From: Bacteroidota bacterium
Lineage (GTDB): Bacteria > Bacteroidota > Bacteroidia > SXHM01
Length of the DNA: 56,633 nt
Assembly: GCA_947479755.1 (NCBI GenBank)
Contig: CANKAM010000024.1
Span: 1-56,633, forward strand
Reading direction: 5' to 3'
Shown here: piece by piece, positions 3,220 to 30,214 of the stretch
Numbering within the stretch: position 1 is the first letter of the stretch
How the letters are laid out: every line of letters starts with the position of its first letter
The notes under the pieces: model-generated
What the model saw: only the letters and a program-made list of their open reading frames with translations
Database searches by the model: none
What the model was told of the DNA's origin: nothing
Program-made: the position numbers and the translations under genes

Positions 3220-3233
3220 GAGCTCTCAACATT

Positions 3234-3262
3234 TTGCAGGAGTAAAAAAAAATTTACATTTG
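3234..3262 (+). promoter_or_regulatory. promoter of the giant surface-protein operon
   Basis: TTG at 3234-3236 and TACATTTG at 3255-3262 are separated by 18 bases. This matches the Bacteroidota housekeeping promoter (TTG-N17..23-TAnnTTTG). The -7 box ends 22 bases before the ATG of the 4392-residue protein, implying a very short leader. Confidence 0.65.
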
Positions 3263-3284
3263 GCTTCTCAAAAAAAATTATAGC

Positions 3285-6200
3285 ATGAAGATTTTTACCC
3301 GAATACTTTTACCGGCAGCCGTTTTATTCTTAGCTGTTCTGTTTAATTCAAAAGATGCCCTTGCCCAACCATGTACCTGGTCAGGTGGTTCATTTAATGT
3401 CAGTAGCGGTTATACTATTTATCCAGGTTGCAATTCCTTTAGCAGCGATTTGCCGGTGGGTAGCGGAACATACACCTTTTTTTATGCTTATAATGGAGCC
3501 AGTTATACAGTAAGCACCTGCGGAAGCCCTTTTGACACTCAACTAAGCATTTATGATGAAAATCCCGCATGGACTTACAGAGTAGGAAATGATGATGCGG
3601 GACCAGAATGTAACACTACAGCAGCATCACTTACCTGGACAGCCACCTATACCGGCAATCACCTTGCGGTAGTTAATGCATATAATTGTCAGGGATATAA
3701 TGGCGGAACATCGGCCGTTTTAAGAATAAGACAAAACTCCCCCACCATAACATCATCAAATGAAACCATGTGTGCAGGGCAGCAGCGCACCCTTACAGCA
3801 AATCAGGCAAACGGATCATGGAGCGGTACAGGGGTGTCAGGCAATGTATTTACGGCACCGGCATCTGAAGGCACTTACACCATTGCTTATTCTCTTGGAG
3901 TATGTACTGTTTACCAAAACATTTATGTTTATTCAAATTCTGTAGCACCCACCGGAATATCAGGCACAACAACCATCTGTAACGGAGGCAGCACAACACT
4001 AACCGTGTCAGGCGGATTTGCCGGAACTGGAGCAAGCGCGCAATGGTTTACTGGAGGATGCGGTGTTACCTCAGCAGGAACAGGAAACAGCATAATCGTT
4101 TCGCCCACCTCTAATACCACTTACTATGTCCGCTACGCAGGAGCCTGCAACACTACCGGTTGCGCTGCTGTAATGGTAACAGTAAATACACTTTCAAGCC
4201 CGCCATCCAGCATAACTTCAAGCGCATCAACCCTCTGTGCCGGAAGCACAGTAACGCTTACGCAGCAAAGCGGTACACTTGGTTCAGGAGCAAATTATCA
4301 ATGGTACTCAGGCAGCTGTGCAGGAACTTATGTGGGCACAGGAAACAGCATAACACCTACTCCACCATCTAACGTTACTAATCCTGTAACAACAAATTAC
4401 TTTGTCAGAGCAGAAGGCACGTGCAATAATACCGTTTGTGCAACCACTTCAGTTACCACAAACCCTACCCCATCAGCAACCATCAGCGGAACAACAACCG
4501 TTTGCCAGAATGCATCATCACCCAACATTACCATAACTAACCCAATTGCCCTACCTGTAACAGTAAGTTATTCGGTGAACGGATCACCAACCACAGTAAG
4601 TATCAGTGCAAGTTCATCAGCAAATATTGCTGTAGCTACAGGCACAGCAGGAACATTTACCTATACTCTTACAAGCGTACAATACCAGTCGGCCCCACTA
4701 TGCGCAACAAGCATATCAGGTTCGGCAACAGTAACTGTGCGTCCAACACCAACAGCAACCATAGGAAGCGATGCTACAGTATGCCAGAATGCTGGCTCAC
4801 CCGTTATAACCTTTACCAACCCGCAAACACTTCCGGTAACCGTTACCTATAACATTAACGGAGGAGGCAGCTCAACTATCGGAGTAAATGCAAATTCAAC
4901 AGCCACTGTATCAGCATCCACAGCAACAGCAGGAACTTTTGCTTACAATCTGGTGAGTGTAGCTTATCAGGCAGCACCTGCTTGCAGCAATACCATAACA
5001 GGAACAGCAACAGTAACAGTGCGTCCCACACCAACAGCTACAATAAGTGGTACAGCCACTGTTTGCCAGAATGCAAGTTCTCCAAACATCACATTTACCA
5101 ACCCCCAAACCTTACCAATAACAGTAACCTATAACATTAACGGTGGTGGAAGCAGCACTATTAACGTAGCTGCAAGTTCTACAGCTACAGTTGCTGCACC
5201 AACCGGCACAACCGGCACTTTTGCTTATAACCTCCTGAGTGTAGTTTACCAAACAACACCAACCTGCTCAAACACTATTTCAGGCACGGCAACCATTACG
5301 GTTCGCCCTACACCTACAGCTACCATCAGCGGAACAGCAAGCGTTTGCCAGGGAGGTACAGCACCAACTATAACCTTTGTAAACCCTAATACACTGGCCG
5401 AAACTGTAACCTATACCATTAACGGCAACCCATTTACCATTAACATAAATGGTAACTCAAGCGCAACAGTTACTGCACCAACCGGCACCGTAGGAACATT
5501 TACTTATGCCTTGGTAAGCGTTGTATATCAATCAGCACCTACTTGCACCAATTCAATATCAGGTGCTGCAACCGTAACGGTAAATCCACTGCCTGTAATT
5601 CAGGAAACACATACCAACCTTTCTTGTCTTAACTCTAATGATGGAGTCATTACCCTATCGGTAAGCCCTCCGGGAACTTCTGCTCCCTATATTTATTCCA
5701 TTACAGGCGGTTCAAGTTTTCAGGGACCCAACAACGGAGCATTTACAGGACTTGCAGCAGGCATCTATAACACACTGGTGGTTCAGGATGCCAATGGCTG
5801 CCGAAATACCAACGTAGTTTCTGTTACACTCACACAACCTACACAACTCAATATCAGCTTATCTTCAAGCACCGATGCAAGTTGCAACGGTGTGTTTGAC
5901 GGAGCCTTAACGGTAGCAGGTTCAGGTGGAACACTAGCTTATCAATATTCACTTAATGGAGGCCCTTTTCAACCCGGAGGAGCATTCACCAACCTTGCAG
6001 CCGGTAGTTATACTGTTACTGTTAAAGACGCTGAAGACTGCACAAACTCATTAACTGTTACAATTAGTAATTCCTATTCAGTTTCAGCAACCATCAGCAG
6101 CCCGGTTAATGTATCATGCCCCGGGCTTCAGAACGGAGGATATACGGTAAACGCTTCAGGAGGTGTTTCGCCTTATAACTATGCTAACAATGGTTTACTG

Positions 6201-9200
6201 TTCGGAACCAATAATGTGTTTACAGGACTGCCGATAGGAACCTACACCGGCTTTGTGCGCGACAGCCGCGGTTGCCTTGCCTCTGACCAGGTTACTATTA
6301 CAACCCTTGCAGCACCTACAGCAATTATTACAGGAACAGCATCATTCTGCGCAGGAGGAAGCACCTTCTTATCTGCAGCAACATCAACTCCGGGTGCCGG
6401 TGGATTTCAGGGTTTCCAATGGCAACTGAACGGGTCAAATATTCCACTTACTACATCTCCACTTTATACCGTTACAGCAGCCGGAAATTATACGGTTATT
6501 GTTACCAATACCAATAACTGTCCAACCACATCGGCAGTTACAACAGTTACTGTAAATCCATTACCTACTATTACCGTTAATCCGTTTACATCAGCAATTT
6601 GCAATGGTTCATCCATTGCACTTACTGCCAGCGGAGCAAGCACTTATGCATGGTCACCTTCAACAGGATTGAGCGCAACAACAGGGGCAACCGTAACAGC
6701 AAATCCAACCTCTACACAGACCTACACAATTACAGGAACAGATGTGAACGGTTGTGTTAACAGCACTACTAAAACAGTAACGGCAAACAACCTGCCAACG
6801 GTAAACGTATCACCATCTGCACCCACTATTTGTAACGGTTCATCTGTTCAGATTACTGCATCAGGGGCTAACAGCTATTCATGGTCGCCTGCTACAGGAT
6901 TGCTTTCTACAACAGGCGCAACCGTAACTGCACAACCAACCACAACAACTACTTACACCATAACCGGAACGGATCTTAATGGCTGTTCAAATACACGCAC
7001 CGTTACTGTAACTGTAACAAATCTGCCTACTGTTACCATTACATCTACCCCTAACCCTGCTACAATTTGTTTAGGGCAAAGCATTACCCTGACATCTAAC
7101 TTTGCTACCGGCAATCTCTGGTCTAACGGAGCTACATCACAAGCCATAACTGTAACACCTAGCCAGGTTGGAACAAGCACTTTTACCCTGTTCTCAACAC
7201 AAAGCGGGTGTACAGGTTCAGCAACAAAAACTGTTACTACTAATTCTGTTCCTTTTGCTAATATCAGTCCACAGCCAACTGTTGCTATCTGCGCAGGAAG
7301 CAGCACCACATTATCAGCTATTACAGATAACGGAACCAGCTTCTTATGGTCACCGGGCGGAGCAACAACTCAAACAGCTACTTTTTCAACAGCCGGGGGC
7401 AAAACCGTTACTATAACAAATAGTTTTGGCTGTTCAACAACTTCGGCAGCTACAACAGTAAGTATAAATCCTTTACCTACTGTAAGTGTATCACCTTCGG
7501 CTCCAACTATCTGCAATGGAAATTCTGTTCAGTTAACCGCTTCGGGTGCCAGCACCTACACATGGTCTCCGGCAACCGGCTTGCTTTCAACATCAGGCAC
7601 CAGCGTAACTGCAGAACCAACAGTTACAAGCACCTATACCGTTACAGGAACTGATTTAAACGGATGTGTAAATACAGCTAACGTTACGGTTACAGTCACA
7701 AACAACCCTGCCGTAACTATTACAGCTGCTCCGGTTAATGCCACTATTTGTTTGGGACAAAGCGTTACCCTGACTTCTAACTTTGCTTCAGGCAATCTTT
7801 GGTCAAATGGAGCTACAACACAAGCTATAACTGTAACACCTGGATCAATCGGCAACACCACATACAGCTTAACTTCAACCCAAAGTGGTTGCTCCGGCTC
7901 AGCATCAAAAACTGTTACTGTTAACCCTCTTCCTTTTGCGGTTATTAATCCTAGCCCAACAGCCTCTATATGTTCAGGCGGAAGTGTTACACTTTCTTCA
8001 GCAACTGATATAGGAACAAATTATTTATGGTCGCCAGGGGGAGCAACAACTCAAACTATTTCAGCTACTTCAGCAGGCAGCTATACTGTAACAATAACAA
8101 ACAGCGCATCAGGTTGCTCTGCTACTTCATCCGCTATAACAGTTTCTGTAAACAGCGCGCCAACAGTTAGTGTAACAGCTTCACCCGTTTCAGGAATTAT
8201 TTGTTCTCCCGGAACCGTTACCTTAACAGCAACAGCAGGCATGAGTTCATATGCGTGGTCAAACGGATTAGTAGGTCAATCAATTACTGTAAGCACCAGC
8301 GGAACATATATGGTTACCGTTACGGATGCTAACGGCTGTACCAACACTGCTTCAAAAGTGGTTACCATCAACCCATTGCCTACAGTAAGTTTCAGCGGAT
8401 TAGCTGCCAGCTATTGCGATGATGATTGCAGCGGATATTTGCTTACAGGTAGCCCGGCAGGAGGCACATTTACCTATACCGGATCAACCGGTTTTAGTGC
8501 TAATACATTTACCCCTTGCACTGCCGAAGGAGGAACATATACCATTACTTATACCTATACAGACGGCAACGGTTGTATCAACAGTAGTTCACAAACTACA
8601 ACAGTTCACCCTGTTCCGCAACCTACAGTTAGCGCACTTACGCCTGTAACAGTTTGTTTTGGTGATGATGTAATACTTACTACTGAAGCTGCAACAACTT
8701 ACTTATGGTCAAACGGAGCAACAACTCAGAGTATATCATTAAGTCTGGTAAGCGAAACCGGCAACTATAATGTAACGTCAACTGATGCTTTCGGATGTTT
8801 CGCAACATCTAATCCTGATCTAGCAGTTACCATCAATGCACTTCCAACACCAACTATTTCAGCAGTAAATAATGACCCAACCACCTTTTGTCAGGGAGGT
8901 AGCGTAACACTGACAACAGGAAATTCATCTTCCTATTCATGGCTACCCGGCTTACAAAGCACTCAATCAATTGTAGTTACTACAGCAGGAAATTATCAGG
9001 TAAGTGTAACCGATGCCAACGGTTGCGAAGGAACTTCAGCAGTTACTGCTGTAACAGTTGATCCAAACCCTGTTCCAACTATTTCAGGAAGTTTAACATT
9101 CTGTACCGGAGGAAGCACTGATCTTACTTCAAGTTCTGCCTCACTTTACGATTGGTCGCCAAATAGTGAAACAACACAAACTATCACTGTAACGGCTGCA

Positions 9201-12200
9201 GGAACATATTCTGTTTTAGTAGAAGATGCAAACGGATGTACAGGAACTGCTTCTGTTACCGTTGCTGAAACTCCGGTAAATCCTGTTATCACAGCATTGA
9301 GCAGCACTACTTTCTGCACAGGTGAAAGTGTTACACTTTATTCAAGCAGCACAACCGGAAATCTTTGGACACCAAGCAATGAAACGACTCAGTTCATTAC
9401 CGTTTCAACATCAGGACCTGTTACACTAACCGTATCAGCGGGCAGTTGTCAGGGAACAACGAATGTAACGGTTACTGTTAATCCTCTTCCAACTGTTAGT
9501 TTCTCAGGTTTGGCTGCCGCTTATTGCAATGATGCCGCAGCTGCAACGCTTACCGGAAGTCCTACAGGCGGCACATTCAGTGGTCCCGGCATTTCAGGAA
9601 ACTCCTTTAACCCGGCATCGGCAGGAAATGGTGTTCATACAATAACCTACAGTTATACTGACGGAAACGGATGCTCTAATACAGCATCACAAAACGTAAC
9701 AGTAAACAACTTGCCAACAGTTACTTTCAGTGGACTTGCAAGTCAATACTGCGCAAACAATCCATCTGTTACTCTTGCAGGAAGCCCAACCGGTGGTACA
9801 TTTACAGGAACAGGCATAACAGGAAGCACTTTTAGCCCTTCTGTAGGGGCAGGAACGTATACAATTACATATACCTTCTCTAACGGAAACGGATGTCAAA
9901 GCAGTTCATCACAAACGGTAACAGTTAACCCTGTTCCATCAGTTAGTTTCACAGGTTTAGATTCTGATTATTGTGCAGATGAGCCTGCAGTAAACTTAAC
10001 AGGCTCACCAGTTGGTGGCAGTTTCAGCGGAAACGGAGTTGTTGGCAGTCAATTCTTCCCAACAGTTCCAGGTTCAGGAAGTCACACCATTACGTATACC
10101 GTGAATAATGCTTATGGTTGTTCATCATCTTCTTCACAAACAATTACAGTTCATGCTATCCCTTCAGTAAGTTTCAGCGGTTTTAATGTACCCCATGCTT
10201 ACTGTGTTGATGCTTCATCTGTAACATTAACAGGTAGTCCTTCAGGGGGCACATTCAGCGGAACAGGTATTACAGTTAACAGTTTCAGCCCTGCAACTGC
10301 TGGAGTTGGCACACATGTTATTACATATACTTATTCTGATGGTTTTGGCTGCACCAATTCAACTACTCAAAGTGTAACTGTTAATCCTTTACCAACAGTT
10401 ACAGCAACGGCACTTGGCTCAACAACAGTTTGCATCGGTGATGCCGTTACAATTTATTCATCAAGCGGAACAGGAAATGTTTGGGCTCCTAACGGTGAAA
10501 CCACCCAATTTATTTCTGCAAGTGCATCAGGAAGTTATTCTGTAACTGTTACAGACGGAAACGGCTGCATTGCTACCTCAAATGCGGTAAACATAACGGT
10601 TAATCCATTACCAACTCCTGTTATTGCAGCAAGTGGGCCTACCGAGTTCTGCGCAGGTGATGATGTTACATTGAGCACCACAATTTCATATTCTCAGTAT
10701 TTGTGGAGTAATGGGGCAACAACTTCATCCATTACGGTTGATGCCGCTGACGATTATACGGTAACTGTTACTAATGCTAACGGATGCAATAACACTTCTG
10801 CACCACAAACCGTAACCGTTAATCCTCTGCCCGATGCACAAATTACACCTTCAGGAACTGTTGGTATTTGCAGCGGTTCAACACTGACAATTACAGCAAG
10901 TGGCGGTACTACTTATCTGTGGTCACCTATTCCTGAAACTACAGATGAAGTGATTGTTTCTTCAGCAGGAACTTATTCTGCTACTGTTACAGATGCTAAC
11001 GGATGTGTTTCAGTTACACCAAGTACAACAGTTGTTGTAAACAGTAACCCAGTTCCTACAGTTAGCGCATTAGGTACTACTACTTTCTGCCAAGGTGGAA
11101 GTGTAACTCTTGTTTCGCCCGCAGCAACAAGCTATTTATGGTCGCCAAACGGAGAAACCAACCAGATTATTTCTGCTTCTGCTTCTGGCAACTATTCAGT
11201 TACTATTATAGATGCAAATGGATGCACTGGCACATCAACACCAACAGTAGTTACAGTTAATCCATTGCCGGTTCCAGTAATAACAGCTAATGGTCCAACA
11301 ACTTTCTGTGCAGGTGGAAATGTGGTATTAAGCACATCAACCCCTTACTCTCAATATTTATGGAGTAACGGTGCGACAACCTCTTCTATTACTGTTTCTG
11401 CTGCCGGAAATTACTCAGTGGCAGTTACTAACAGCAATGGCTGTTCAGCTACTACAGGACCTACTGTAGTTACTGTTAATAGTTTACCGACTGCAGGAAT
11501 TTCACCTTCGGGGACAATTGGCATTTGCAGTGGATCAAGCATTACTCTTCAGGGAAGTGGTGGTACATCTTACTTGTGGTCACCTAATAATGAAACAACT
11601 CAAAACATTACTGTTGCAACTGCAGGAACCTATTTTGTTACAGTTACTAATGCAAATGGTTGTGTTTCTGTTTCACCAAGTACAACAGTTGTTGTAAACA
11701 GCAACCCTGTTCCAACTGTTAGTGCATTAGGCACAACTACCTTCTGTCAGGGAGGAAGTGTTACATTGGTAGCCAGTGCAGGAGCAAGCTACCTGTGGTC
11801 GCCAAACGGTGAAACCAACCAGATTATTTCGGCTACAACATCCGGAAATTATTCGGTAACTATTAATGATGGCAACGGCTGTGTGGGAACTTCAAGCCCG
11901 GCTGTTGTAGTAACGGTAAATCCTTTACCTGTTGTTTCTTATGGAACTCTTGCAGCAGCCTATTGTGTTGATGCCTCTCCTGTTCTTTTAACAGTTAGTC
12001 CCGCTGGTGGTTTCTTTGCCGGACCTATTACAGGAAATACCTTTAATCCTTCATTGGCAGGAGTTGGAACGCACGTTATTACTTACCAATACACCAACGG
12101 AAATGGTTGCACTAATTCTTACAGCCAGACTGTTATTGTTAATCCTTTACCTGTTGTGAGTTTCAGCGGATTTAACGTGCCGCATGAGTATTGTGTTGAT

Positions 12201-15200: not shown

Positions 15201-16463
15201 GTAGCAAGCAATTCAACGGCTGGTGACTACCGCGCGAGCGTTACCGATGCTAACGGTTGCTTTAACTATGATGAGATGACCTTGGTTGTTTTCACGCCTC
15301 AGGTTCCGGTGATTACAGCGAATGGATCGCCATCAATTTGTGACGGACAAACGTTGGTGCTTAATGCAGGGTCAGGCTTCCAGGAATATTTATGGAGCAA
15401 TACTGCAGATACACAACTTGACTCTATCACACAATCGGGAAGCTATACAGTAACAACAACTGATTTGAATGGTTGTCAGGCTACATCTACTCCATATAAC
15501 GTAACAGTTATTCCTCTGCCGGTGGTTACTGTTTTTGCAAATGGACCAACAGAGATTTGCGAAGGCAATTTTGTAACACTTGTAATGCCTTCAGGTTATT
15601 CAGCTTACGTATGGAATAATGGCGCTACCACCAGTTCAATAGTAGTAAATCAGGAAGGCGATTATTTTGGTTCTGCTACCAACAGTGCAGGTTGCAGTAA
15701 TATAACCTCAACTATCAGCGTAAGCGTAAACCCGCAACCTGAGCCTGTGATTACACCGCAAGGTCCGGTTACGCTCTGCTTTGGCGAAAGCATTTTGCTT
15801 GATGCCGGTGATTTGGGTTATACTACTTATAACTGGTTCCGTAACCTTAATCCGCTTACTGTTCATTCGCAGTTTGCGCCTGTGGGCACAAGCGGAAGTT
15901 ACACTGTAGAGGTAATTGATACTAATGGCTGCGGTGCCGGTGTTAACTCACCCCCGGTTGTTGTAACAGTATTGTCTGAACTGATACCGCAGATTAGCAT
16001 TTCTGCTGATCAAGATACGCTTTACTCAACTCCGGCACAAACATATCAGTGGTATTACAACGGAATTGCTGTAAACGGAGCCAACCTCCAATACTTTGTT
16101 CCTCAGGCAAGCGGAAACTATTCTGTAACCGTAACGGATAACAACGACTGCGAAGGAACATCCGCAATTATAGAATTCAGTTTCTCCGGAATCGGAATGA
16201 ATGAGAATGTATTCAGCTACATCAACCTGTTCCCTAACCCGGGTAAAGGTAGATTTACTGTTGTGGCTGAATTTGGCTCAGTAACTTCTGCAAACATTGT
16301 AATTACGGATATGCTTGGACATAACATTATGCCGGCAATTAATCTCAAAGGAATCACATCGTTGAAGCAGGAAATTTCAGTGGAAGAATTTGCCAACGGA
16401 GTTTATTTTGTAAACATCATGACAGACAACGGTCAGAAAGTAATAAGGTATATTAAAGAATAA
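3285..16463 (+). CDS. giant modular T9SS-secreted adhesin-like protein (4392 aa)
   Basis: A cell-surface or released protein exported by Sec and then the type IX system. A signal peptide spans residues 1-27 and ends ALA-Q. Residues about 28-150 form a Cys-containing beta-sandwich of the pre-peptidase C-terminal (PPC) kind. The body is built of Ig-like/PKD-like modules of several types: four of about 93 residues (393-766); three SprB-type repeats (about 767-1010); mixed Ig-like modules with a W-S-NG/P core; and 18 copies of a 75-residue module of the pattern SFSGL..YC...GGTFSG.G..G..F.P..AG.G.HTITY.Y.D.NGC. Nearly every module has a YC and an NGC cysteine, suggesting one disulfide each. The last 80 residues (from NLFPNPGKG) are a type A T9SS sorting domain. 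It is first in a four-gene operon with a 10-base gap to the next gene. Adhesion or gliding is inferred from architecture (compare SprB). No catalytic domain is visible. Confidence 0.9.
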   Translation: MKIFTRILLPAAVLFLAVLFNSKDALAQPCTWSGGSFNVSSGYTIYPGCNSFSSDLPVGSGTYTFFYAYNGASYTVSTCGSPFDTQLSIYDENPAWTYRVGNDDAGPECNTTAASLTWTATYTGNHLAVVNAYNCQGYNGGTSAVLRIRQNSPTITSSNETMCAGQQRTLTANQANGSWSGTGVSGNVFTAPASEGTYTIAYSLGVCTVYQNIYVYSNSVAPTGISGTTTICNGGSTTLTVSGGFAGTGASAQWFTGGCGVTSAGTGNSIIVSPTSNTTYYVRYAGACNTTGCAAVMVTVNTLSSPPSSITSSASTLCAGSTVTLTQQSGTLGSGANYQWYSGSCAGTYVGTGNSITPTPPSNVTNPVTTNYFVRAEGTCNNTVCATTSVTTNPTPSATISGTTTVCQNASSPNITITNPIALPVTVSYSVNGSPTTVSISASSSANIAVATGTAGTFTYTLTSVQYQSAPLCATSISGSATVTVRPTPTATIGSDATVCQNAGSPVITFTNPQTLPVTVTYNINGGGSSTIGVNANSTATVSASTATAGTFAYNLVSVAYQAAPACSNTITGTATVTVRPTPTATISGTATVCQNASSPNITFTNPQTLPITVTYNINGGGSSTINVAASSTATVAAPTGTTGTFAYNLLSVVYQTTPTCSNTISGTATITVRPTPTATISGTASVCQGGTAPTITFVNPNTLAETVTYTINGNPFTININGNSSATVTAPTGTVGTFTYALVSVVYQSAPTCTNSISGAATVTVNPLPVIQETHTNLSCLNSNDGVITLSVSPPGTSAPYIYSITGGSSFQGPNNGAFTGLAAGIYNTLVVQDANGCRNTNVVSVTLTQPTQLNISLSSSTDASCNGVFDGALTVAGSGGTLAYQYSLNGGPFQPGGAFTNLAAGSYTVTVKDAEDCTNSLTVTISNSYSVSATISSPVNVSCPGLQNGGYTVNASGGVSPYNYANNGLLFGTNNVFTGLPIGTYTGFVRDSRGCLASDQVTITTLAAPTAIITGTASFCAGGSTFLSAATSTPGAGGFQGFQWQLNGSNIPLTTSPLYTVTAAGNYTVIVTNTNNCPTTSAVTTVTVNPLPTITVNPFTSAICNGSSIALTASGASTYAWSPSTGLSATTGATVTANPTSTQTYTITGTDVNGCVNSTTKTVTANNLPTVNVSPSAPTICNGSSVQITASGANSYSWSPATGLLSTTGATVTAQPTTTTTYTITGTDLNGCSNTRTVTVTVTNLPTVTITSTPNPATICLGQSITLTSNFATGNLWSNGATSQAITVTPSQVGTSTFTLFSTQSGCTGSATKTVTTNSVPFANISPQPTVAICAGSSTTLSAITDNGTSFLWSPGGATTQTATFSTAGGKTVTITNSFGCSTTSAATTVSINPLPTVSVSPSAPTICNGNSVQLTASGASTYTWSPATGLLSTSGTSVTAEPTVTSTYTVTGTDLNGCVNTANVTVTVTNNPAVTITAAPVNATICLGQSVTLTSNFASGNLWSNGATTQAITVTPGSIGNTTYSLTSTQSGCSGSASKTVTVNPLPFAVINPSPTASICSGGSVTLSSATDIGTNYLWSPGGATTQTISATSAGSYTVTITNSASGCSATSSAITVSVNSAPTVSVTASPVSGIICSPGTVTLTATAGMSSYAWSNGLVGQSITVSTSGTYMVTVTDANGCTNTASKVVTINPLPTVSFSGLAASYCDDDCSGYLLTGSPAGGTFTYTGSTGFSANTFTPCTAEGGTYTITYTYTDGNGCINSSSQTTTVHPVPQPTVSALTPVTVCFGDDVILTTEAATTYLWSNGATTQSISLSLVSETGNYNVTSTDAFGCFATSNPDLAVTINALPTPTISAVNNDPTTFCQGGSVTLTTGNSSSYSWLPGLQSTQSIVVTTAGNYQVSVTDANGCEGTSAVTAVTVDPNPVPTISGSLTFCTGGSTDLTSSSASLYDWSPNSETTQTITVTAAGTYSVLVEDANGCTGTASVTVAETPVNPVITALSSTTFCTGESVTLYSSSTTGNLWTPSNETTQFITVSTSGPVTLTVSAGSCQGTTNVTVTVNPLPTVSFSGLAAAYCNDAAAATLTGSPTGGTFSGPGISGNSFNPASAGNGVHTITYSYTDGNGCSNTASQNVTVNNLPTVTFSGLASQYCANNPSVTLAGSPTGGTFTGTGITGSTFSPSVGAGTYTITYTFSNGNGCQSSSSQTVTVNPVPSVSFTGLDSDYCADEPAVNLTGSPVGGSFSGNGVVGSQFFPTVPGSGSHTITYTVNNAYGCSSSSSQTITVHAIPSVSFSGFNVPHAYCVDASSVTLTGSPSGGTFSGTGITVNSFSPATAGVGTHVITYTYSDGFGCTNSTTQSVTVNPLPTVTATALGSTTVCIGDAVTIYSSSGTGNVWAPNGETTQFISASASGSYSVTVTDGNGCIATSNAVNITVNPLPTPVIAASGPTEFCAGDDVTLSTTISYSQYLWSNGATTSSITVDAADDYTVTVTNANGCNNTSAPQTVTVNPLPDAQITPSGTVGICSGSTLTITASGGTTYLWSPIPETTDEVIVSSAGTYSATVTDANGCVSVTPSTTVVVNSNPVPTVSALGTTTFCQGGSVTLVSPAATSYLWSPNGETNQIISASASGNYSVTIIDANGCTGTSTPTVVTVNPLPVPVITANGPTTFCAGGNVVLSTSTPYSQYLWSNGATTSSITVSAAGNYSVAVTNSNGCSATTGPTVVTVNSLPTAGISPSGTIGICSGSSITLQGSGGTSYLWSPNNETTQNITVATAGTYFVTVTNANGCVSVSPSTTVVVNSNPVPTVSALGTTTFCQGGSVTLVASAGASYLWSPNGETNQIISATTSGNYSVTINDGNGCVGTSSPAVVVTVNPLPVVSYGTLAAAYCVDASPVLLTVSPAGGFFAGPITGNTFNPSLAGVGTHVITYQYTNGNGCTNSYSQTVIVNPLPVVSFSGFNVPHEYCVDAGAVTLAGLPVGGTFSGPGISGLQFNPATAGAGTHTVTYTYTDGNGCVNSQSQSVTVHPLPVVSFTGLDAEYCIDEAAATLVPSPIGGTFTGTGMSENVFNPATAGAGTHTITYTYTDANTCTNSVSHSVTVHPLPVVTFTALANQYCITVTSVTLAGSPSGGTFTGTGVTGNIFNPSVAGVGSFTLTYTYTDANGCTNFATRTAVVVPLPVVSFSGLAATYCVDAAAAPLTGSPSGGTFSGIGISGNNFVPSQAGVGTHTIIYTYTNQFGCTNSTSQSVVVNPLPVISFTGLGQDYCINETPATLSGSPQSGTFSGAGISGTVFSPAVAGAGVHTITFTYTDVNGCTGVLTQSVTVYALPVVSITPITQQFCVTTTSVPLTATPAGGTFSGSGVTGNIFNPSVAGVGTHNIIYYYTDINGCTNSANINITVLALPVVTFSGLSTQYCVNASAITLVGNPTGGTFSGTGVTGNTFNPATAGVGITTITYTFTNGSGCTNSTSQSTTVTPLPIVSISGLATQYCVDASAVSLTGNPAGGSFSGAGMSGGIFTPANAGLGIHTITYSYTDANGCSATATASVTVNDLPVVTINNTTLQYCVSETTVALTATPSGGTFSGNGVTGSNFNPSLAGTGTHTITYDYSDGNGCENSDAVSIEVVPLPVVSFSGLALQYCENSNQVTLTGSPAGGTFSGEGMTGDTFDPSSTTIGSIAITYTYSDGNGCTNTSVQTVNVYSLPIVQFTGLFTEYCVDADDVELTPLPAGGAFIGPGLNGNTFSPSSAGVGTHTITYAFQNGVGCIGTVQQTTEIHALPVVSFTGLGTIYCLESDSVPLTGTPVGGYFSGPALNDSVFYPFYAGVGQHTITYTYFDNNGCEASYSQLVNVYQLSQPQVTANGPVAFCEGDDVTLTAQPPFVSYLWSNGATTQSISIDTETENYVTVQDVNGCRATSDTIDVTVYPLPVVDLGDDVSLCPGTSLTLDAGAGFAEYVWVPGGATTQTITVVASNSTAGDYRASVTDANGCFNYDEMTLVVFTPQVPVITANGSPSICDGQTLVLNAGSGFQEYLWSNTADTQLDSITQSGSYTVTTTDLNGCQATSTPYNVTVIPLPVVTVFANGPTEICEGNFVTLVMPSGYSAYVWNNGATTSSIVVNQEGDYFGSATNSAGCSNITSTISVSVNPQPEPVITPQGPVTLCFGESILLDAGDLGYTTYNWFRNLNPLTVHSQFAPVGTSGSYTVEVIDTNGCGAGVNSPPVVVTVLSELIPQISISADQDTLYSTPAQTYQWYYNGIAVNGANLQYFVPQASGNYSVTVTDNNDCEGTSAIIEFSFSGIGMNENVFSYINLFPNPGKGRFTVVAEFGSVTSANIVITDMLGHNIMPAINLKGITSLKQEISVEEFANGVYFVNIMTDNGQKVIRYIKE
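4461..5582 (+). repeat. 4 x ~93-residue internal repeat in the giant protein
   Basis: Four consecutive modules start with (N/R)PTP(S/T)ATI and share VCQ(N/G), TFTNP-type and GTF.Y.L.SV.YQ..P.C segments. Copies 2 and 3 are the closest to each other. They occupy residues 393-766. Confidence 0.85.
6789..8150 (+). repeat. tandem duplication of a three-module block, about 226 residues each
   Basis: Two adjacent blocks, residues 1169-1394 and 1395-1622, each carry the same three modules in the same order: VSPSAPTICNG, then ATICLGQS(I/V)TLTSNFA, then an I..P.PT..IC.G module with LWSPGGATTQT. The order of sub-modules shows that the block, not the single module, was the unit of duplication. Confidence 0.85.
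9480..10382 (+). repeat. 75-residue 'YC...GGTFSG' module, copies 2-5
   Basis: Four tandem copies at residues 2066-2366. Copy 1 is separate, at about 8370-8610. The fifth copy carries the insertion variant FNVPHAYC, which reappears as FNVPHEYC in copy 7. Confidence 0.85.
10602..11918 (+). repeat. second tandem duplication of a three-module block, 219/220 residues
   Basis: Blocks at residues 2440-2658 and 2659-2878 share three ordered modules: GPT.FCAG with YSQYLWSNGATTSSITV; PSGT.GICSGS; and NPVPTVSALGTTTFCQGG with LWSPNGETNQIISA. Runs identical over more than 15 residues between the blocks suggest this duplication is younger than the one at 6789-8150. Confidence 0.88.
11919..14846 (+). repeat. 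75-residue 'YC...GGTFSG' module, copies 6-18
   Basis: Thirteen uninterrupted copies over residues 2879-3854, averaging 75 residues with very little length variation. The YC and NGC cysteines are conserved in almost all. Copy 12 has FC instead of YC. Confidence 0.88.
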
Positions 16464-16473
16464 AAGACTTAGC

Positions 16474-19400
16474 ATGAAGAGAATATTATTAGCAGCATTT
16501 GCCTGTCTGTCCTTTGCGGGAGCAGCAACAGCACAGGACTTTACCATTAACGCACCCAATAGTCTTGTAAATACTACCTGCGGTGCAGTAAATAACTGTG
16601 CGTTCAGTCCATCAGAAGACCAAATTATTCAGGTGAACATACCCTGCGCGGGCGACTGGAATTTCTCTCTTTGCGGATCAGCATTCAATACCAGAATGTT
16701 TCTGACAACTGCAATTTGTGGAGGCACTACATTAGCTTCCAATGATGATTTCTGCGGACTGCAATCTGAGTTTACCGCTACCGTTGGCATTGGCGTTTAT
16801 TATGTGGCCATTGAAGGTGCAACAGGTGTTGATTGCGGTGCATACGCCTTGGTGGTTTCTGATGATGAAGCTCCTGTGATTGTAAATTGTCAAAGTGATA
16901 TTTCTGTAAACAATGATGCAGGCGATTGCGGTGCGATTGTCAACTTTTCGGCACCATCGGCTACTGATAATTGTGTGTTAAGCGGCTTCAGTACCAATCA
17001 CAATTCGGGTGAGCTGTTTCCTGTTGGAACTACAACGGTTACCTACACCGCTACTGATGGCGGAGGCAACATTACCACCTGCAGTTTTGATATTACCGTA
17101 ACTGACAGTGAAGACCCAACGATTGCCAACTGTCCTTTAAGCATTACAACTTCCAATTCAGCCAATCAATGCGGAGCTACTGTTGCATGGGCTGTTCCGG
17201 TAGCTTCTGACAATTGCAACGTAAACAGTTTTACAACTACTCATAGCCCGGGCGCATTTTTCCCGTTGGGAACAACAACAGTTATTTACACCGCAACTGA
17301 TAATGCAGGAAATTCAACTACCTGCACATTTACGATTACGGTTAATGATACACAAGCCCCTACCCTTTCCTGCCCTTCAAACATTTCAGTAAATAATAAC
17401 CCCGGTTTGTGCGGAGCAACCGTTAATTACATTGTAACCGGAACAGATAACTGTCCCGGAGTTGTAACCACTTTAACAGGAGGCTTGGCAAGCGGCTCCT
17501 TCTTCCCTGTTGGAACTACTGTTGTATCGTATCTGGCAACAGATGCTGCATCCAACACAGCTACCTGCTCGTTTACAGTAACTGTTTTAGATAACGAAGA
17601 TCCTGTTTTCAACTGCCCTGCAGACTTGCTGGTATGCGGTGATAACTCCGTTGTAACGTTTTCCATTCCTTCTTTTACCGACAACTGTTCAGGTGCAAAT
17701 GCTGTTCAGGTTTCGGGACCGGCAAGCGGTTCAACCTTAACTGTAGGAACCTACACCGTAGCTTTTCTGGCAACCGATGTTGCAGGAAATTCAAGTTCAT
17801 GCAGCTATGATATTGTAGTAGCCTACAATCCAGTTGCCGATTACGGTTACAGCACTTCATGCGCAGGTGATTTGATTTTCTTTACTGAATTCTCAACCAT
17901 TCCGGGCGGAACAGTTGATGCTTATTCATGGGATATGGGCGATGGCAGCGGACCAATTTCTACACGAAATCCCGTTTACCAATTTCCAAACACAGGATTT
18001 TATGATGTTACACTAACCGTAACAAGCGATATGGGTTGCACAAACTCCTATACCGAAACAATTAATATCACCAACGTTCCTTCTGCTTCATTTACTGTTT
18101 CGCCACAGTGTGCAGGTTTGCAGGCAGTGTTTAACAATACCTCAACCATTATTACAGGTGATCTGGATTATGTATGGGATTTTGGTGATGGTACAACCGG
18201 GCTGGGTGATGACCCTGTTCACGTTTATCAGAACCCGGGAACCTATACCGTAATTCTTACCGTTACTTCCATTGACGGTTGCGTAGATGATTTTTCTTCT
18301 ACCATAAATATACTTGCTAATCCTCTTGCTAATTTCACAACGGCAAACCTTCAATGTTTTGATGACGAAAGTGGTGAACTTAACATTTCAGGTTACGGAA
18401 GTCTTTCTCCTTATATCTATTCATTAGATGGCGGAAACAACTATCAACCTACAGGCAGCTTTACCGGATTAGATGCAGGTTCATACACCGTAATTGTTGA
18501 AGACGATAACGGTTGTTCTTCTTCTTATAACTTCTCTCTTACCGAACCTACTGAACTTACTTCAACACTTTCAAATTCTGACAACCTTTTCTGCTTTGGT
18601 GATGAAGACGGAAGCATTGTGGTTTCAACAACAGGTGGAGCAACGCCTTATTACTATACGCTTGACGGTGTGAGCTTTCTGTTAAGCCCTGTTTTCAGCA
18701 ATCTTGGTGCAGGCGATTATGTTGTTGCCGTTAGCGATGATAACGGTTGTGCTGATACTGTTGAAGTAACATTGAGCGAACCAACTCAGCTAAGTGCTGT
18801 TGTTTTCTCTTCAGAAAATGTTGGTTGCTATGGAAATAATTCAGGTTACCTTGAATTGTTTGCAAACGGTGGAGTAAGTCCATACCAGTATTCTAACAAT
18901 GGCGGACAAACATTTCAGTCAAGCCCTGAGTTCACTAACCTTGCTGCGGACACTTATGCTATTGTTGTAAAAGACGATAACAACTGCTCGGAAACATTTT
19001 CTGCAACTATTACAGAACCTGCGGTTCTTGCATTCAGTGTTGATGCAAATGATGTACTTTGCTATGGAGGCAACAACGGCAGTATTGTATTCTCTGTAAC
19101 AGGCGGAACAGCTCCTTTTGAGTTCTCAACTGATGGCGGACAAACGTATGGTTCACTTTCAACGGTTACGGGTCTTGCTTCGGGTAATTATGTGGTGAGT
19201 GTAAAAGATGCTAATGACTGTACCGTTTCTGGCGGAGCATTTATTAACCAGCCTGCAGAAGAGCTTTCTGCTTCAGTAGCTTCGCTGCAAAATGTTTTGT
19301 GCCGCAGCGAAAATTCAGGTACAGTAACTATTGATGTAACAGGCGGAACAGAAACCTACACTTACTCTGTTGACGGAGGACAAAATTTCCAGACCAGCAG

Positions 19401-20481
19401 TATTATTTCAGGATTGGTTACAGGTGATTACGAAGTGATTGTTGCCGATTTCAATGGCTGCGAAACTACTGTTGATTTCTCTATTACAGAGCCGGCAGAA
19501 AACCTGCGCATTGATCTGGTAGTGGCTGAAGATGTAGTTTGCTTCGGAGACGGAAGCGGCTTAATCAGCATTATTGCCGGTGGCGGAACTGCTGCTTATG
19601 AATATTCAATTGATGAAGGAACAACGTATCAATCAAGTGACGAATTTAGCGGGCTTGGTGGCGGAACTTTTTACATCAGCGTTCGTGACGAAAACGGCTG
19701 CGTAGTTGCTGACACAGCAGAAATTGATGAACCATCGGCATCCCTTACAATAGCATTCAACGGCTCAACCAACGTAATTTGCGAGAACGATACAACAGGA
19801 AGTCTGAGCGTTACAGGTTCAGGCGGAACTCCTCCTTACCTTTATTTCTTAGATGGTCAGAACGGTCAGCTTTCAGGAGTATTTTCAGGCCTGACTTCAG
19901 GCACATACAATGCGTTGGTTAAAGATTTGAATGGTTGTGTCAACAGCGTTGACATTATGATTGAAGCGGTAAGTTATTTGCCTGATGTAGATTTCTCTTA
20001 TCAGGTTGCCGGACAAAGTGTGGCGTTTCAGAATACTACTTCGGGTGCGCAGGCCTATACCTGGTATTTTGGTGATGGCGGAACATCAACACAAACTAAT
20101 CCCACTCACCTGTATGCTACTTCCGGTCAATTCACGGTGAAACTTGTTGCTGAAAATACTTGTGGTTTTGACTCCATTACTAAAAACATTTCCACTGTAA
20201 TCATCAGCATTGAAGAAAATGAACTGTTCAGTACATCCGTTTATCCTAATCCGGCAAACGAACAGTTTACAGTGAGTTTAACTTCAAAAGAAAATCTTGA
20301 AAACATAAGTATCAATCTGCATTCAGTTGATGGCAGACTTTTATTTTCAGAAAGCAATTCTGTTCAGGGAAATGCATTCACACGCACCTTCAACACACAG
20401 CATTTTGCTCAGGGAATTTATATGCTTGAACTTGTTTCGGACAAAGCAAGAACAAGCCGCTTAATCACTATTAATCACTAA
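16474..20481 (+). CDS. T9SS-secreted HYR/PKD/SprB-repeat protein (1335 aa)
   Basis: Secreted or surface protein. A signal peptide covers residues 1-20 (ending ATA-Q). Residues about 22-130 are a Cys-rich PPC-like sandwich (CGSAFNTRMF...NDDFCG) resembling the N-terminal domain of the preceding giant protein (CGSPFDTQLS...NDDAG). Four HYR domains follow (about 131-450; motifs NC..DI.V.ND.G.CGA.V and FPVGTT.V.YTATD). Then come two PKD domains with WDMGDG/WDFGDG (about 455-615), seven SprB-type repeats (about 620-1165; CFGD..G.I...GG..PY.YS.DGG), another PKD domain (WYFGDG) and a type A T9SS sorting domain from VYPNPANEQF. It begins 10 bases after the giant gene's stop. Likely a companion surface fibre; binding partner unknown. 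Confidence 0.88.
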   Translation: MKRILLAAFACLSFAGAATAQDFTINAPNSLVNTTCGAVNNCAFSPSEDQIIQVNIPCAGDWNFSLCGSAFNTRMFLTTAICGGTTLASNDDFCGLQSEFTATVGIGVYYVAIEGATGVDCGAYALVVSDDEAPVIVNCQSDISVNNDAGDCGAIVNFSAPSATDNCVLSGFSTNHNSGELFPVGTTTVTYTATDGGGNITTCSFDITVTDSEDPTIANCPLSITTSNSANQCGATVAWAVPVASDNCNVNSFTTTHSPGAFFPLGTTTVIYTATDNAGNSTTCTFTITVNDTQAPTLSCPSNISVNNNPGLCGATVNYIVTGTDNCPGVVTTLTGGLASGSFFPVGTTVVSYLATDAASNTATCSFTVTVLDNEDPVFNCPADLLVCGDNSVVTFSIPSFTDNCSGANAVQVSGPASGSTLTVGTYTVAFLATDVAGNSSSCSYDIVVAYNPVADYGYSTSCAGDLIFFTEFSTIPGGTVDAYSWDMGDGSGPISTRNPVYQFPNTGFYDVTLTVTSDMGCTNSYTETINITNVPSASFTVSPQCAGLQAVFNNTSTIITGDLDYVWDFGDGTTGLGDDPVHVYQNPGTYTVILTVTSIDGCVDDFSSTINILANPLANFTTANLQCFDDESGELNISGYGSLSPYIYSLDGGNNYQPTGSFTGLDAGSYTVIVEDDNGCSSSYNFSLTEPTELTSTLSNSDNLFCFGDEDGSIVVSTTGGATPYYYTLDGVSFLLSPVFSNLGAGDYVVAVSDDNGCADTVEVTLSEPTQLSAVVFSSENVGCYGNNSGYLELFANGGVSPYQYSNNGGQTFQSSPEFTNLAADTYAIVVKDDNNCSETFSATITEPAVLAFSVDANDVLCYGGNNGSIVFSVTGGTAPFEFSTDGGQTYGSLSTVTGLASGNYVVSVKDANDCTVSGGAFINQPAEELSASVASLQNVLCRSENSGTVTIDVTGGTETYTYSVDGGQNFQTSSIISGLVTGDYEVIVADFNGCETTVDFSITEPAENLRIDLVVAEDVVCFGDGSGLISIIAGGGTAAYEYSIDEGTTYQSSDEFSGLGGGTFYISVRDENGCVVADTAEIDEPSASLTIAFNGSTNVICENDTTGSLSVTGSGGTPPYLYFLDGQNGQLSGVFSGLTSGTYNALVKDLNGCVNSVDIMIEAVSYLPDVDFSYQVAGQSVAFQNTTSGAQAYTWYFGDGGTSTQTNPTHLYATSGQFTVKLVAENTCGFDSITKNISTVIISIEENELFSTSVYPNPANEQFTVSLTSKENLENISINLHSVDGRLLFSESNSVQGNAFTRTFNTQHFAQGIYMLELVSDKARTSRLITINH

Positions 20482-20508
20482 GAGAATTTACAAGGAATAC
20501 TTTAAACG

Positions 20509-22551
20509 ATGATACGACAACTACTTTTCAGGTTTTTCGCAGCAGCATGTTTTTTTTGTCTGGTTACACAGGCAAATGCAAGCACAGCAAGTTACACCGC
20601 CACCAATGTTTGTGAAGGCAGCAACACGCTGTTTCAAAGCACCTCCACCGCAAGCAGCGGAACCATTACCCAATGGCTATGGGATTTTGATTATGACGGC
20701 CAGTTTGATGATGGCTCAGGACAAAACGTGAATTACGTTTTTCCTACATCAGGAACCTTTCTGGTTGGCTTGCGCATTACTACCGATTTAAACGAAACAG
20801 TTCAAACCTACAACACCGTAGTTATTAATCCGGTTGCAGTTGCATCGTTTCTCGCTCCAGAAGTTTGTGCAGGAAGCGCAACTTCATTTACTGACAATTC
20901 AACCATTGCTTCTCCCGGAGCGATTGCCGCCTATGCATGGGATTTTGATAACAACGGAAGCTACGATAACGGAGCAGGTGCAACAGCACAATATCTTTTT
21001 GGTGGTGCAGGAACCTATGTTGTAGGCTTACAGGTAACCAGCGACAGCGGCTGTGTTTCGGTAACACACGGTTCGGTGATTGTTAACCCCAACCCTACTG
21101 CCAACTTCAGTTTCACAGAAGTTTGTCAGGGCGATTCAACGCACCTTACAGGAAGCGGAACAGTTGCTTCAGGAAGCATTGTTTCTTACGCATGGGAACT
21201 GAACGGTGACGCACAATACAACGATGCAACAGGCGCAAGTATTTACAATGAATTCATTAACGCAGGGAATTATCAGGTTGGTTTACGTGTAACTACCAAC
21301 AAAGGCTGCTCAACCGATACCGTTGGCCTGGTAGTAATTGCTCCCATTCCTTATACCAATTACAGTTTTGATGGTGCTTGCACCAACACTGCTATCAGCT
21401 TTACCAATCTTTCGTTCAGCGGAGTTGGAACCATGAGTTACACTTGGAATTTTGGTGATACAACAGCAACTTCAAATGTTGTAAATCCAACGCACATTTA
21501 CGATAGTCCGGGTGAACACACCATTACCTTAATTGGTATTTCATCTTACGGTTGCAGCGATACTACTTCACAAAATATTATTATCAACGGAACACCAATT
21601 TCTGAGTTTACGGCAGATGATGTTTGCCTTTGGCAAGAAACAGAATTCAACAACTCAGCAAAACCAAACGGCAGCGTGATTGAAAGCTATTACTGGAATT
21701 TTGATGATGGCGGAGAGAGCGTGGAAACCAATCCTGTTCACCTGTATACACAGCCCGGAACGTACACCGTTATGCTGGTAACTTACAGCACACAAGGTTG
21801 TATTGACACCGTAGAAGTTGATGTTAATGTGTGGGCAAATCCTGTTGCAAACATTGTAGCTGCAAGTGCTACCGAGTTTTGTATTGGCGGAAGTGTTACA
21901 CTTACCATTGATCCGGGAAATGCAAATGTATTGTGGTCAAATGCTGCCGATGCAAACAGTATTACTGTTGACGCAAGTGGCTCATACAATGTATTATTAT
22001 ACGATGAGCATGGCTGCAAAGACCGCGACACCATTGTGGTAACCGTTTACCAGCTTCCGGTTGTTGTTGCAGGACCTGATACTTCCATCAGCGCAGGCTT
22101 TTCTACCCAGCTATGGGCAACAGGCGCACAGGATTATGTTTGGACTCCTTCTGATTATTTAGACCAGACCAACATTGCTGAGCCAACATCAACTCCGCTG
22201 CAAACCATTACCTATACTGCAACAGGAACCGACCAATACGGTTGTGTGAATTCTGACGAAGTAACCGTTACTGTTAATTACGATTACACTTTGGTAACCT
22301 ACAATCTGTTCTCACCCAACAGCGATGGAGTAAACGATTTCTTTGAAGTAATGAACCTGCAATTGTATCCCGATTGCGAAGTGATTGTTTACAACCGTTT
22401 GGGAAGCCCTGTGTTTTCTTCAATGGGTTACCAGAACAACTGGAATGGAACTTTCAACGGTGAGCCCTTACCCGATGCAACCTACTACTATGTGATTAAA
22501 TGCACAGGAACAGAAAAAGTATTTACAGGACCAATTTCAATTTTGAGATAA
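20509..22551 (+). CDS. PKD-repeat protein with type B (gliding-associated) sorting domain
   Basis: Signal peptide (residues 1-25, ending NA-S). Five Cys-bearing PKD domains follow (about 28-450); the first two have long loops (WDFDYDGQFDDG, WDFDNNGSYDNG). Next is an Ig-like module (FCIGGSVTLTI...LWSNAADANSITV), a short linker module, and a C-terminal domain of the CHU_C / gliding-motility-associated family (about 595-680; SPNSDGVNDFFE, VYNRLG, WNGTFNGEPLPDATYYY). That domain is the type B T9SS signal, which in studied species depends on a PorP/SprF-like partner. Such a gene follows directly after 13 bases. The start is 27 bases after the previous stop, so it belongs to the same operon. It may anchor or assemble the two larger proteins at the surface; that is inference. 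Confidence 0.88.
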   Translation: MIRQLLFRFFAAACFFCLVTQANASTASYTATNVCEGSNTLFQSTSTASSGTITQWLWDFDYDGQFDDGSGQNVNYVFPTSGTFLVGLRITTDLNETVQTYNTVVINPVAVASFLAPEVCAGSATSFTDNSTIASPGAIAAYAWDFDNNGSYDNGAGATAQYLFGGAGTYVVGLQVTSDSGCVSVTHGSVIVNPNPTANFSFTEVCQGDSTHLTGSGTVASGSIVSYAWELNGDAQYNDATGASIYNEFINAGNYQVGLRVTTNKGCSTDTVGLVVIAPIPYTNYSFDGACTNTAISFTNLSFSGVGTMSYTWNFGDTTATSNVVNPTHIYDSPGEHTITLIGISSYGCSDTTSQNIIINGTPISEFTADDVCLWQETEFNNSAKPNGSVIESYYWNFDDGGESVETNPVHLYTQPGTYTVMLVTYSTQGCIDTVEVDVNVWANPVANIVAASATEFCIGGSVTLTIDPGNANVLWSNAADANSITVDASGSYNVLLYDEHGCKDRDTIVVTVYQLPVVVAGPDTSISAGFSTQLWATGAQDYVWTPSDYLDQTNIAEPTSTPLQTITYTATGTDQYGCVNSDEVTVTVNYDYTLVTYNLFSPNSDGVNDFFEVMNLQLYPDCEVIVYNRLGSPVFSSMGYQNNWNGTFNGEPLPDATYYYVIKCTGTEKVFTGPISILR

Positions 22552-22564
22552 AAAGGAATTAGCA

Positions 22565-24061
22565 ATGAAGATGAAACATATTTACAAAATATTCTCGCTT
22601 GGTTTGTTGATGTTTTCGTTTGCAACTGCAAACGCACAACAAATGGCGCAAACCAATTTATACCTTGTAAACAGGTATATAATGAACCCTGCAAATGCAG
22701 GCGATCAGGATCAGCTTTCGGGCTATCTGTCACACCGCCAGCAATGGGTAAACATTGAAGGTGCTCCGCGCACCAGCATTCTGAGTGTGCACAGTCCCGT
22801 TGGAAAAAACGTAGGCTTTGGCGGAACCATCATGAGTGATAAGACCGATATCTTTGAAAGACTTTCGGTTAATCTGAGTTATGCCTATCACATCCAGTTC
22901 AGCAAAAAAATAAAGCACTCACTCAGCCTTGCTGTGTCGGGCGGTTTTCTGCAAAATAAAATCAATGTTACCGATGTAAGAATGGCTGCTCCCGGTGATG
23001 TGGTTATCAGTCCCGGAAAATTCAACGGCATTACCTTTAATGTTGATGCAGGTTTGCGTTATAATATTTATGGCTTAGAGATTGGCGCTGCCGTACCTCA
23101 ACTGATGGAAAGCAAAGTGAAATACAAACGTGAAATACAGGATCAGTATTACAAACTGGTGCGTCATTACATGTTCTTTGCAAGCTACAAGATCAACATT
23201 GCTAAACACAATTGGTTTGTTCAGCCATCGGCTGTTTACCGTTATTTCCCTTATTCAAAATCACAGTTTGATGCCAACCTTAATTTTTATTACAAAGACC
23301 TTGCTTGGGTAGGCGGAACGTATCGCTATGATGCCGGTTATGTGGTTTCTGCCGGATTTAAAGTAGCTGACCAAATCTCCATTGCATATGCCTATGAGTT
23401 TGGAACAACAGGTATAGCAGCGCAAAGTGCAGGTTCGCACGAAGCAATGCTAAGCTTCCACCTCTTTAGCCGTAAAAATCAACAACAGGATGAAGAGATT
23501 GCCCGTCTGGATGAAAGCCAGATGTCTATTCTTGGTATGGTTGACAGTTTAAATAACCGCATTGATAGTTTATATGCCTTGCAGGACAGCGCAGGAAAAG
23601 CTAACCCCGAACAACAGAAAGAAATTGCAGAAGCAGTTAAACGAATTGATTTAGTGGAAAATCAGATGAAAGCTTTTGAAGGTCAGCTGAGCGACATGGA
23701 AACGGAAGTTGATTTTATGAAGATGCGCCTGGATACTCTTGAAATAAAAGGCAGCTACAAACAGGTAACCCGCGTTATGGATATGAACACCGGCAAAGAA
23801 AAGATACAAAGTGTTCCGCTGGAAAAAGGGTATTACGTAGTGGTTGAATCATTCCGAAGCTTTGATAATGCCGAGCGCTACATCAAAGCCTTTAACGAGC
23901 GTGGCGAAAAAGCAATTGTGGTTCATAATGTTGACCGCGGCTGGTATTACTGCTACCTGAAGAAATTTGACGATCTTAAAACGGCTCTTGCGGCTATGGA
24001 AGAAACCCGTAAAAACGGTTTTGAAGATGCATGGGTGCATATTTACAAAGGCGGTAAATAA
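22565..24061 (+). CDS. PorP/SprF-family outer-membrane protein with coiled coil and SPOR-like tail
   Basis: Signal peptide (residues 1-24), then a PorP/SprF domain (about 25-305) with the family opening NLYLVNRYIMNPANAG, HRQQWV...GAPRTS, and a C-terminal Y.YEFGT strand. Standard members stop near residue 310. This one continues with a helical, probably coiled-coil stretch (about 312-400) and an 85-residue C-terminal domain (YYVVVESFRSFDNAERYIKA...GWYYCYLKKF) resembling a SPOR fold. Known role of the family: partner of T9SS cargo, above all type B cargo. As last gene of the adhesin operon it probably docks or anchors the upstream type B protein. The SPOR-like part would face the periplasm and could bind peptidoglycan. 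Confidence 0.9.
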   Translation: MKMKHIYKIFSLGLLMFSFATANAQQMAQTNLYLVNRYIMNPANAGDQDQLSGYLSHRQQWVNIEGAPRTSILSVHSPVGKNVGFGGTIMSDKTDIFERLSVNLSYAYHIQFSKKIKHSLSLAVSGGFLQNKINVTDVRMAAPGDVVISPGKFNGITFNVDAGLRYNIYGLEIGAAVPQLMESKVKYKREIQDQYYKLVRHYMFFASYKINIAKHNWFVQPSAVYRYFPYSKSQFDANLNFYYKDLAWVGGTYRYDAGYVVSAGFKVADQISIAYAYEFGTTGIAAQSAGSHEAMLSFHLFSRKNQQQDEEIARLDESQMSILGMVDSLNNRIDSLYALQDSAGKANPEQQKEIAEAVKRIDLVENQMKAFEGQLSDMETEVDFMKMRLDTLEIKGSYKQVTRVMDMNTGKEKIQSVPLEKGYYVVVESFRSFDNAERYIKAFNERGEKAIVVHNVDRGWYYCYLKKFDDLKTALAAMEETRKNGFEDAWVHIYKGGK

Positions 24062-24077
24062 AGCCTGAGAGAACAAA

Positions 24078-24115
24078 ACAAGAAGAGCGGCAGGTGTACC
24101 TGCCGCTCTTCTCAT
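24078..24115 (+). terminator. terminator of the giant surface-protein operon
   Basis: A perfect inverted repeat (arm GAAGAGCGGCAGGT, 24082-24095, with its complement ending at 24111) forms a 13-14 bp GC-rich stem with almost no loop. It lies 20 bases after the last stop codon and is followed only by a short mixed T-rich stretch (ctcatt). Confidence 0.75.
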
Positions 24116-24172
24116 TAATAAGGAAATAAATTGATAGCCAGACGCTAAATAATAAGGGTAAGAGCGGAACTG

Positions 24173-24202
24173 TTGTTAAATCACATTAATTTTCTAAGTT
24201 TG
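24173..24202 (+). promoter_or_regulatory. promoter of the 24224-29634 T9SS-cargo genes
   Basis: TTG at 24173-24175 and TAAGTTTG at 24195-24202, spacing 19, match the Bacteroidota -33/-7 consensus. The -7 box ends 21 bases before the ATG. Confidence 0.65.
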
Positions 24203-24223
24203 TTGATACTCTAAGCCAAAATC

Positions 24224-26416: not shown

Positions 26417-26428
26417 CCAACTAAAATC

Positions 26429-27949: not shown

Positions 27950-27984
27950 AATTTTATAAGTTTTGAGTGCCCAAAAACTAAACC

Positions 27985-29634: not shown

Positions 29635-29706
29635 CATTTTTAATTTTTCAACTAATCATACTTAAAACACACCTTTTAAGAGCTATTTCGCTTTAAGTGA
29701 ACCCTG

Positions 29707-30094: not shown

Positions 30095-30214
30095 TCTTTT
30101 TCAATAGCAATTGTTAAAATCTGTTAAAAAGTATGGAGTAGCACAATATGCAGCATCCTATTAGCGTTATCAGATTAATTAACGCTTCTTTATTAACTAA
30201 AAAAACAAAACAAA

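Follow-up and report, generated by a model that had tools for sequence, protein, structure and literature searches.

Background

Cargo proteins of the type IX secretion system (T9SS) that end in a type B sorting domain need a cognate carrier of the PorP/SprF family and stay bound to it (PMC9143113, PMC12618676). For type B cargo whose carrier has a PorE partner, a static placement on the cell has been proposed (PMC12618676, PMC9143113). Type A cargo, by comparison, normally travels via PorV and is either released or separately attached (PMC12618676). In F. johnsoniae, sprB, sprC, sprD and sprF are described as one operon (Rhodes 2011, as related in PMC12635249).

Here we present a locus from a 56,633-nucleotide contig of a Bacteroidota genome (CANKAM010000024.1; the whole contig is referred to as the window) in which the PorP/SprF barrel is extended by a coiled coil and a SPOR domain, an architecture designated here as PorP-SPOR. 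Among the papers found on SPOR together with type IX secretion, PorP or T9SS, none evidently deals with this fusion, judging by titles and abstracts. We propose, with a probability of roughly 0.6, that the core of the locus is a three-gene display cassette in which a wall tether has been fused onto the type B carrier, so that the cargo is anchored statically.

Results

Gene content and boundaries of the locus

The initial annotation had described a self-contained operon of T9SS cargos with its own PorP/SprF protein, and the ORF coordinates agree with it exactly: four genes lie on the plus strand, separated by 10, 27 and 13 bases, the last of these gaps being that between the type B gene and the carrier gene (Table 1). 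The sorting-domain assignments, two type A cargos, one type B cargo and a terminal PorP/SprF protein, were also borne out by Pfam and NCBIfam. The 4392- and 1335-residue proteins carry a Por_Secre_tail at the C-terminus, above the Pfam/NCBIfam cut-offs, and have signal peptides as judged by eye. Repeats with a period of mostly 73-75 residues fill the second half of the larger protein, and the smaller one has four HYR, seven SprB and three PKD repeats together with its type A domain. The 680-residue protein consists of five PKD domains and a C-terminal type B domain (CHU_C, 84.0 bits; TIGR04131, 62.4 bits; both above cut-off), and the barrel of the last protein matches PF11751 at 211 bits and TIGR03519 at 216.8 bits, above the curated cut-offs of the PorP/SprF family. 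One sister genome (G004) has identical gene order and gaps, and it is reasonable, from an order kept in relatives, to regard the four genes as one self-contained operon.

Table 1. Positions of the genes, protein domains and regulatory elements of the locus within the window
Feature	Position	Strand	Basis
Bacteroidota-type promoter-like site, TTTG-N18-TANNTTTG	3233..3262	+	motif match
4392-residue Ig-repeat surface protein, type A sorting domain	3285..16463	+	ORF list, Pfam/NCBIfam
1335-residue adhesin-like protein, type A	16474..20481	+	ORF list, domain searches, cassette comparison
680-residue PKD protein, type B sorting domain	20509..22551	+	ORF list, domain searches, cassette comparison
498-residue PorP/SprF carrier with fused coiled coil and SPOR (PorP-SPOR)	22565..24061	+	domain/profile searches, AlphaFold
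Coiled-coil linker, carrier residues 306-389	23480..23731	+	AlphaFold, pLDDT about 43-76
SPOR domain, carrier residues 421-494	23825..24046	+	Pfam, profile search, AlphaFold, Foldseek
Stem-loop, former terminator	24081..24112	+	folding, comparison with G006/G003

The two boundaries that had been claimed for the operon fared less well. The promoter-like site is present, and its -7 core, TACATTTGGCTTC, is retained 5' of the orthologue in G003, which makes a putative promoter at this position plausible, but chance alone would yield about three matches of the TTTG-N18-TANNTTTG type per window. A scan with the sigma-70 consensus gave matches at chance level and was set aside. At the other end, the supposed strong terminator contains a real and conserved stem-loop (-27.7 kcal/mol, z -5.4), common to G006 and G003, in which changes in the stem keep the pairing. 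In those two genomes a T-rich sequence follows the stem; on the plus strand of the present genome there is no T-tract after it, so the designation is only partly right here. The place of the T-tract has apparently been taken by a 7.2 kb island (24113-31298), absent from G003, which contributes three more type A genes and abuts the hairpin with its left end. Within the island, an intergenic tandem repeat spans 29707-30093 (41-base unit, 9.4 copies). Further along, on the minus strand at 42825-49668, the window holds a T9SS core cluster, with a canonical PorP and a GldK-like FGE-sulfatase protein assigned by Pfam, followed by consecutive genes recognized by eye as one GldL-like, one GldM-like and two GldN-like.

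The carrier ends in a SPOR domain

Residues 301-498 of the carrier, a feature absent from the initial annotation, comprise the coiled coil and the SPOR domain. Unfused PorP/SprF proteins in our sample stop 16-47 residues past the barrel profile, whereas the present carrier continues for about 200. In the AlphaFold model of the full-length carrier (pTM 0.58), a barrel (residues 51-300) leads into the helices and the SPOR domain delimited in Table 1; barrel and SPOR domain are modelled confidently and the helices are not, and the pLDDT of the latter leaves their exact path unsure.

At 30.9 bits, the Pfam SPOR match on the carrier exceeds the cut-off of 21. A profile made from 43 PorP-SPOR tails matches SPOR domains of solved structure, namely CwlC (1x60, 2e-8) and FtsN (1uta, 0.019). 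AlphaFold models the tail as a beta-alpha-beta-beta-alpha-beta fold with a pLDDT of 89.6, for which Foldseek returned CwlC (the sole match with E < 0.001), DedD, the complex of the RlpA SPOR domain with denuded glycan, FtsN and DamX. The tail is full-length and 93-98% conserved in the genus, it occurs in open frames across many families, and it has the sharp motif GYYVV[IV][GE][SA]F; some distant members give weak Pfam SPOR scores.

A glycan-contacting glutamine is preferred in SPOR domains, yet is not universal in the family. At the position of this residue (Q270 of RlpA, which contacts the denuded glycan; PMC6895207) all 43 tails have Val or Ile, Val426 in the present carrier, and canonical SPOR glycan binding therefore cannot be assumed. 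Where FtsN has R285, most of the tails have Tyr, and only the Phe (430) is retained, in 42 of the 43. In several other SPOR proteins of these genomes the glutamine is likewise replaced, by Ile, Val or Leu.

PorP-SPOR genes follow type B genes and lack a separate tether

After removal of near-copies, the PorP-SPOR set contained 52 genes, a count that rests partly on a custom profile, since this detects the SPOR tail in several distant members where Pfam fails to. Most of their loci were fetched by the SPOR motif and not by the type B domain. A type B gene lies directly upstream of 46 of the 52; three more are at contig ends, and the three without one are L050, where the type B gene is two genes up, and the divergent L094 and L096. 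This near-universal pairing, like the established rule for type B cargo, is consistent with the earlier suggestion of the PorP/SprF barrel as carrier and anchor of the type B protein. At L094 and L096, the divergent PorP-SPOR gene comes after a DUF1501 protein (by Pfam for L094 only), with no adjoining type B gene.

None of the 52 PorP-SPOR genes has a separate PorE-like neighbour with OmpA or SPOR. Of 27 plain PorPs located after a type B gene, a set drawn largely from this carrier's top matches and thus not a random sample, nine have a PorE-like neighbour downstream (six PorE-OmpA, three PorE-SPOR) and 18 have no adjacent tether at all; the difference between 0/52 and 9/27 has a Fisher p of 5e-5, not corrected for kinship. 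The present genome contains both arrangements, with type B, plain PorP and OmpA-bearing PorE in succession on contigs C22 and C74, and PorP-SPOR with no PorE beside it in the window and on C6. In the operon and adjoining it, no separate lipoprotein of the PorE type (TPR, beta-propeller, CarboxypepD_reg, OmpA) was found. With about 45 type B domains above cut-off and only eight genes of the PorP/SprF family, the present genome (G000; 112 contigs, 99.6% complete) leaves most of its type B cargo without a carrier gene of its own. The plain PorPs beside PorE-OmpA (L002, L003, L117, L120, L128, L130) end in PRYF or PRF, which may be a point of contact with PorE.

In the phylum sample, full-length PorP-SPOR was not found in f49, the best-sampled family, among the best matches listed; six candidates were scored per genome, and the sample therefore gives no frequency. 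If f49 is the Flavobacterium family, this absence may be why PorP-SPOR has gone undescribed.

Natural exchange of the tail

In G016 (L132) an orthologous cassette has a PorP that ends in OmpA rather than SPOR; similarity to the window's cassette is 35% over 685 residues for the type B protein, 30% over 962 for the type A protein and 29% for the barrel. PorP-OmpA fusions also occur at L123, L125 and L133. Conversely, PorE-like TPR/beta-propeller proteins at L079:10954-12939, L100:10157-12043 and L111:5850-7793 have SPOR, not OmpA, as their last domain. At L122, L127 and L136, TPR repeats are inserted between barrel and SPOR, the SPOR of L122 and L127 being detected by the custom profile only. 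On a barrel tree of 89 rows, the SPOR state calls for five or more changes and the OmpA fusions for three or more, as expected of a modular tether; the window's carrier belongs to a supported clade of 12 proteins that all have SPOR. The part of the carrier that sets its fate appears to be an exchangeable tail, which may be missing, short and accompanied by a PorE with OmpA or SPOR, a fused OmpA or a fused SPOR. Orthologous cassettes with SPOR and with OmpA amount to a natural domain swap, so this idea is directly testable.

The loss of the glycan-contact glutamine from every one of the 43 tails, together with its like replacement in other SPOR proteins of these genomes, would suit a protein-protein docking domain, directed at the T9SS core, a lipoprotein or the divisome, with the cargo still anchored. 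We think this rather unlikely, since SPOR holds the slot that OmpA fills in the orthologous cassette of L132, and likewise takes that of OmpA in the PorE-like proteins, which points to wall binding.

The three-gene cassette in relatives

The close relatives are uncultured Bacteroidia MAGs, some of which bear the label Chitinophaga pinensis. Orthologues of the carrier are present in four genomes of the same genus at 93-98% identity, and contig C6 of the same genome has a paralogous cassette. The order of a type A gene, a gene for a PKD type B protein of about 680 residues and PorP-SPOR recurs on C6, in G003, G051, G014 and G058, and at L060, L061 and L069, where the type A and type B assignments come from custom profiles. 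Its first gene encodes a type A HYR/SprB/PKD adhesin of the 1335-residue type. Where compared, the type B proteins align over almost their whole length at 47-50%; for their type A partners the figure is 35-41% over 550-920 residues. The 4392-residue gene is found across the genus with varying length (3938 aa in G003) and, among the sampled genomes, precedes the cassette only in that genus; on this distribution it is a genus-level addition to a conserved three-gene unit.

In several lineages the 1335-type gene keeps its tight linkage to those for the type B protein and the carrier, which could mean, as the initial annotation had suggested, that the type B protein serves both type A proteins as a docking site within one surface complex, whatever the carrier mechanism. 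We consider this doubtful. Type A cargo depends on PorV, after which it is released or becomes attached independently (PMC12618676); the two type A proteins of this locus should travel by that route, and beyond the genus the 4392-residue gene lies outside the cassette.

Cell-division genes downstream

In G001 and G004 the hairpin is missing, and a zapB-like gene followed by zapA starts 9-12 bases after the carrier. In the window zapA was confirmed at 31804-32082, and the zapB-like assignment is below the Pfam cut-off. In G003 (L040) the zapBA region is where the two cassettes converge, with about 7 kb between their carrier genes. The close spacing in the two sister genomes suggests that the SPOR tail might place type B cargo at a defined zone of the wall, such as the division site, in which case a secretion carrier would determine the site of adhesin display on the cell surface. 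We think this quite unlikely; outside the genus, a link with cell-division genes is not evident in the neighbour tables.

Discussion

Static anchoring by the fused tail can be pictured as follows. By extrapolation from other PorP/SprF pairs, the T9SS translocon would pass the type B sorting domain to the carrier, which would hold it, and the PKD rod would thereby be kept on the cell surface. The C-terminal coiled coil would extend into the periplasm, where the SPOR domain would grip peptidoglycan; so placed, the complex would be fixed and not carried on gliding tracks. The tether task that a separate PorE-type OmpA lipoprotein performs in other lineages would here lie within the carrier itself. 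No Cys-x-Cys tail was found in the carrier, whose sole cysteine (Cys463) is within the SPOR domain, and it has a candidate wall module of its own, so static anchoring, through a tail that would bind peptidoglycan, is our best inference. What chiefly speaks against it is the replacement of the glycan-contact glutamine in all 43 tails.

The layout, several surface-protein genes with an SprF-family gene, is also that of an ordinary SprB/SprF-like gliding operon (cf. F. johnsoniae sprCDBF), in which the type B protein would be a mobile adhesin on a GldK track. This is very improbable, for the carrier lacks the Cys-x-Cys tail that SprF needs for track attachment (PMC12635249) and has a 198-residue wall-type extension that SprF does not have. 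As a general marker of mobile carriers the Cys-x-Cys tail was rejected: none of the sampled PorPs has it, which leaves no contrast, and static and mobile carriers therefore cannot be told apart by its absence. A functionless SPOR tail, fused by accident or in decay, for which the weak Pfam scores of some distant members might speak, is hardly credible against the full-length conservation, the open frames in many families and the sharp motif.

Static anchoring by a fused tail would bear on how T9SS type B cargo becomes static or mobile, and the fusion suggests a simple means of fixing secreted proteins on the cell surface.

The closest described systems are Fjoh_3952/3951/3950 of F. johnsoniae, which includes a PorE-like partner, and PG1035-PorP-PorE of P. 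gingivalis, which share with the present locus a type B cargo with its own PorP/SprF carrier (PMC12618676, PMC9143113). In the F. johnsoniae system the carrier gene directly follows the type B gene, as here, and in both systems a peptidoglycan-binding module is tied to the carrier and static anchoring has been proposed. Unlike them, the present locus has its wall module fused to the carrier, uses SPOR instead of OmpA and has no adjoining PorE gene. The sprB-sprC-sprD-sprF operon, as far as it is described in the source cited above, is alike in combining several surface proteins and an SprF-family gene in one unit; SprF, however, is mobile and is joined to GldK through a short Cys-x-Cys tail (PMC12635249), whereas the present carrier has a coiled coil and SPOR instead. 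With FtsN, DamX, DedD, RlpA and CwlC the carrier tail shares its fold, but here the SPOR domain lacks the key glutamine and is borne by an outer-membrane T9SS carrier barrel.
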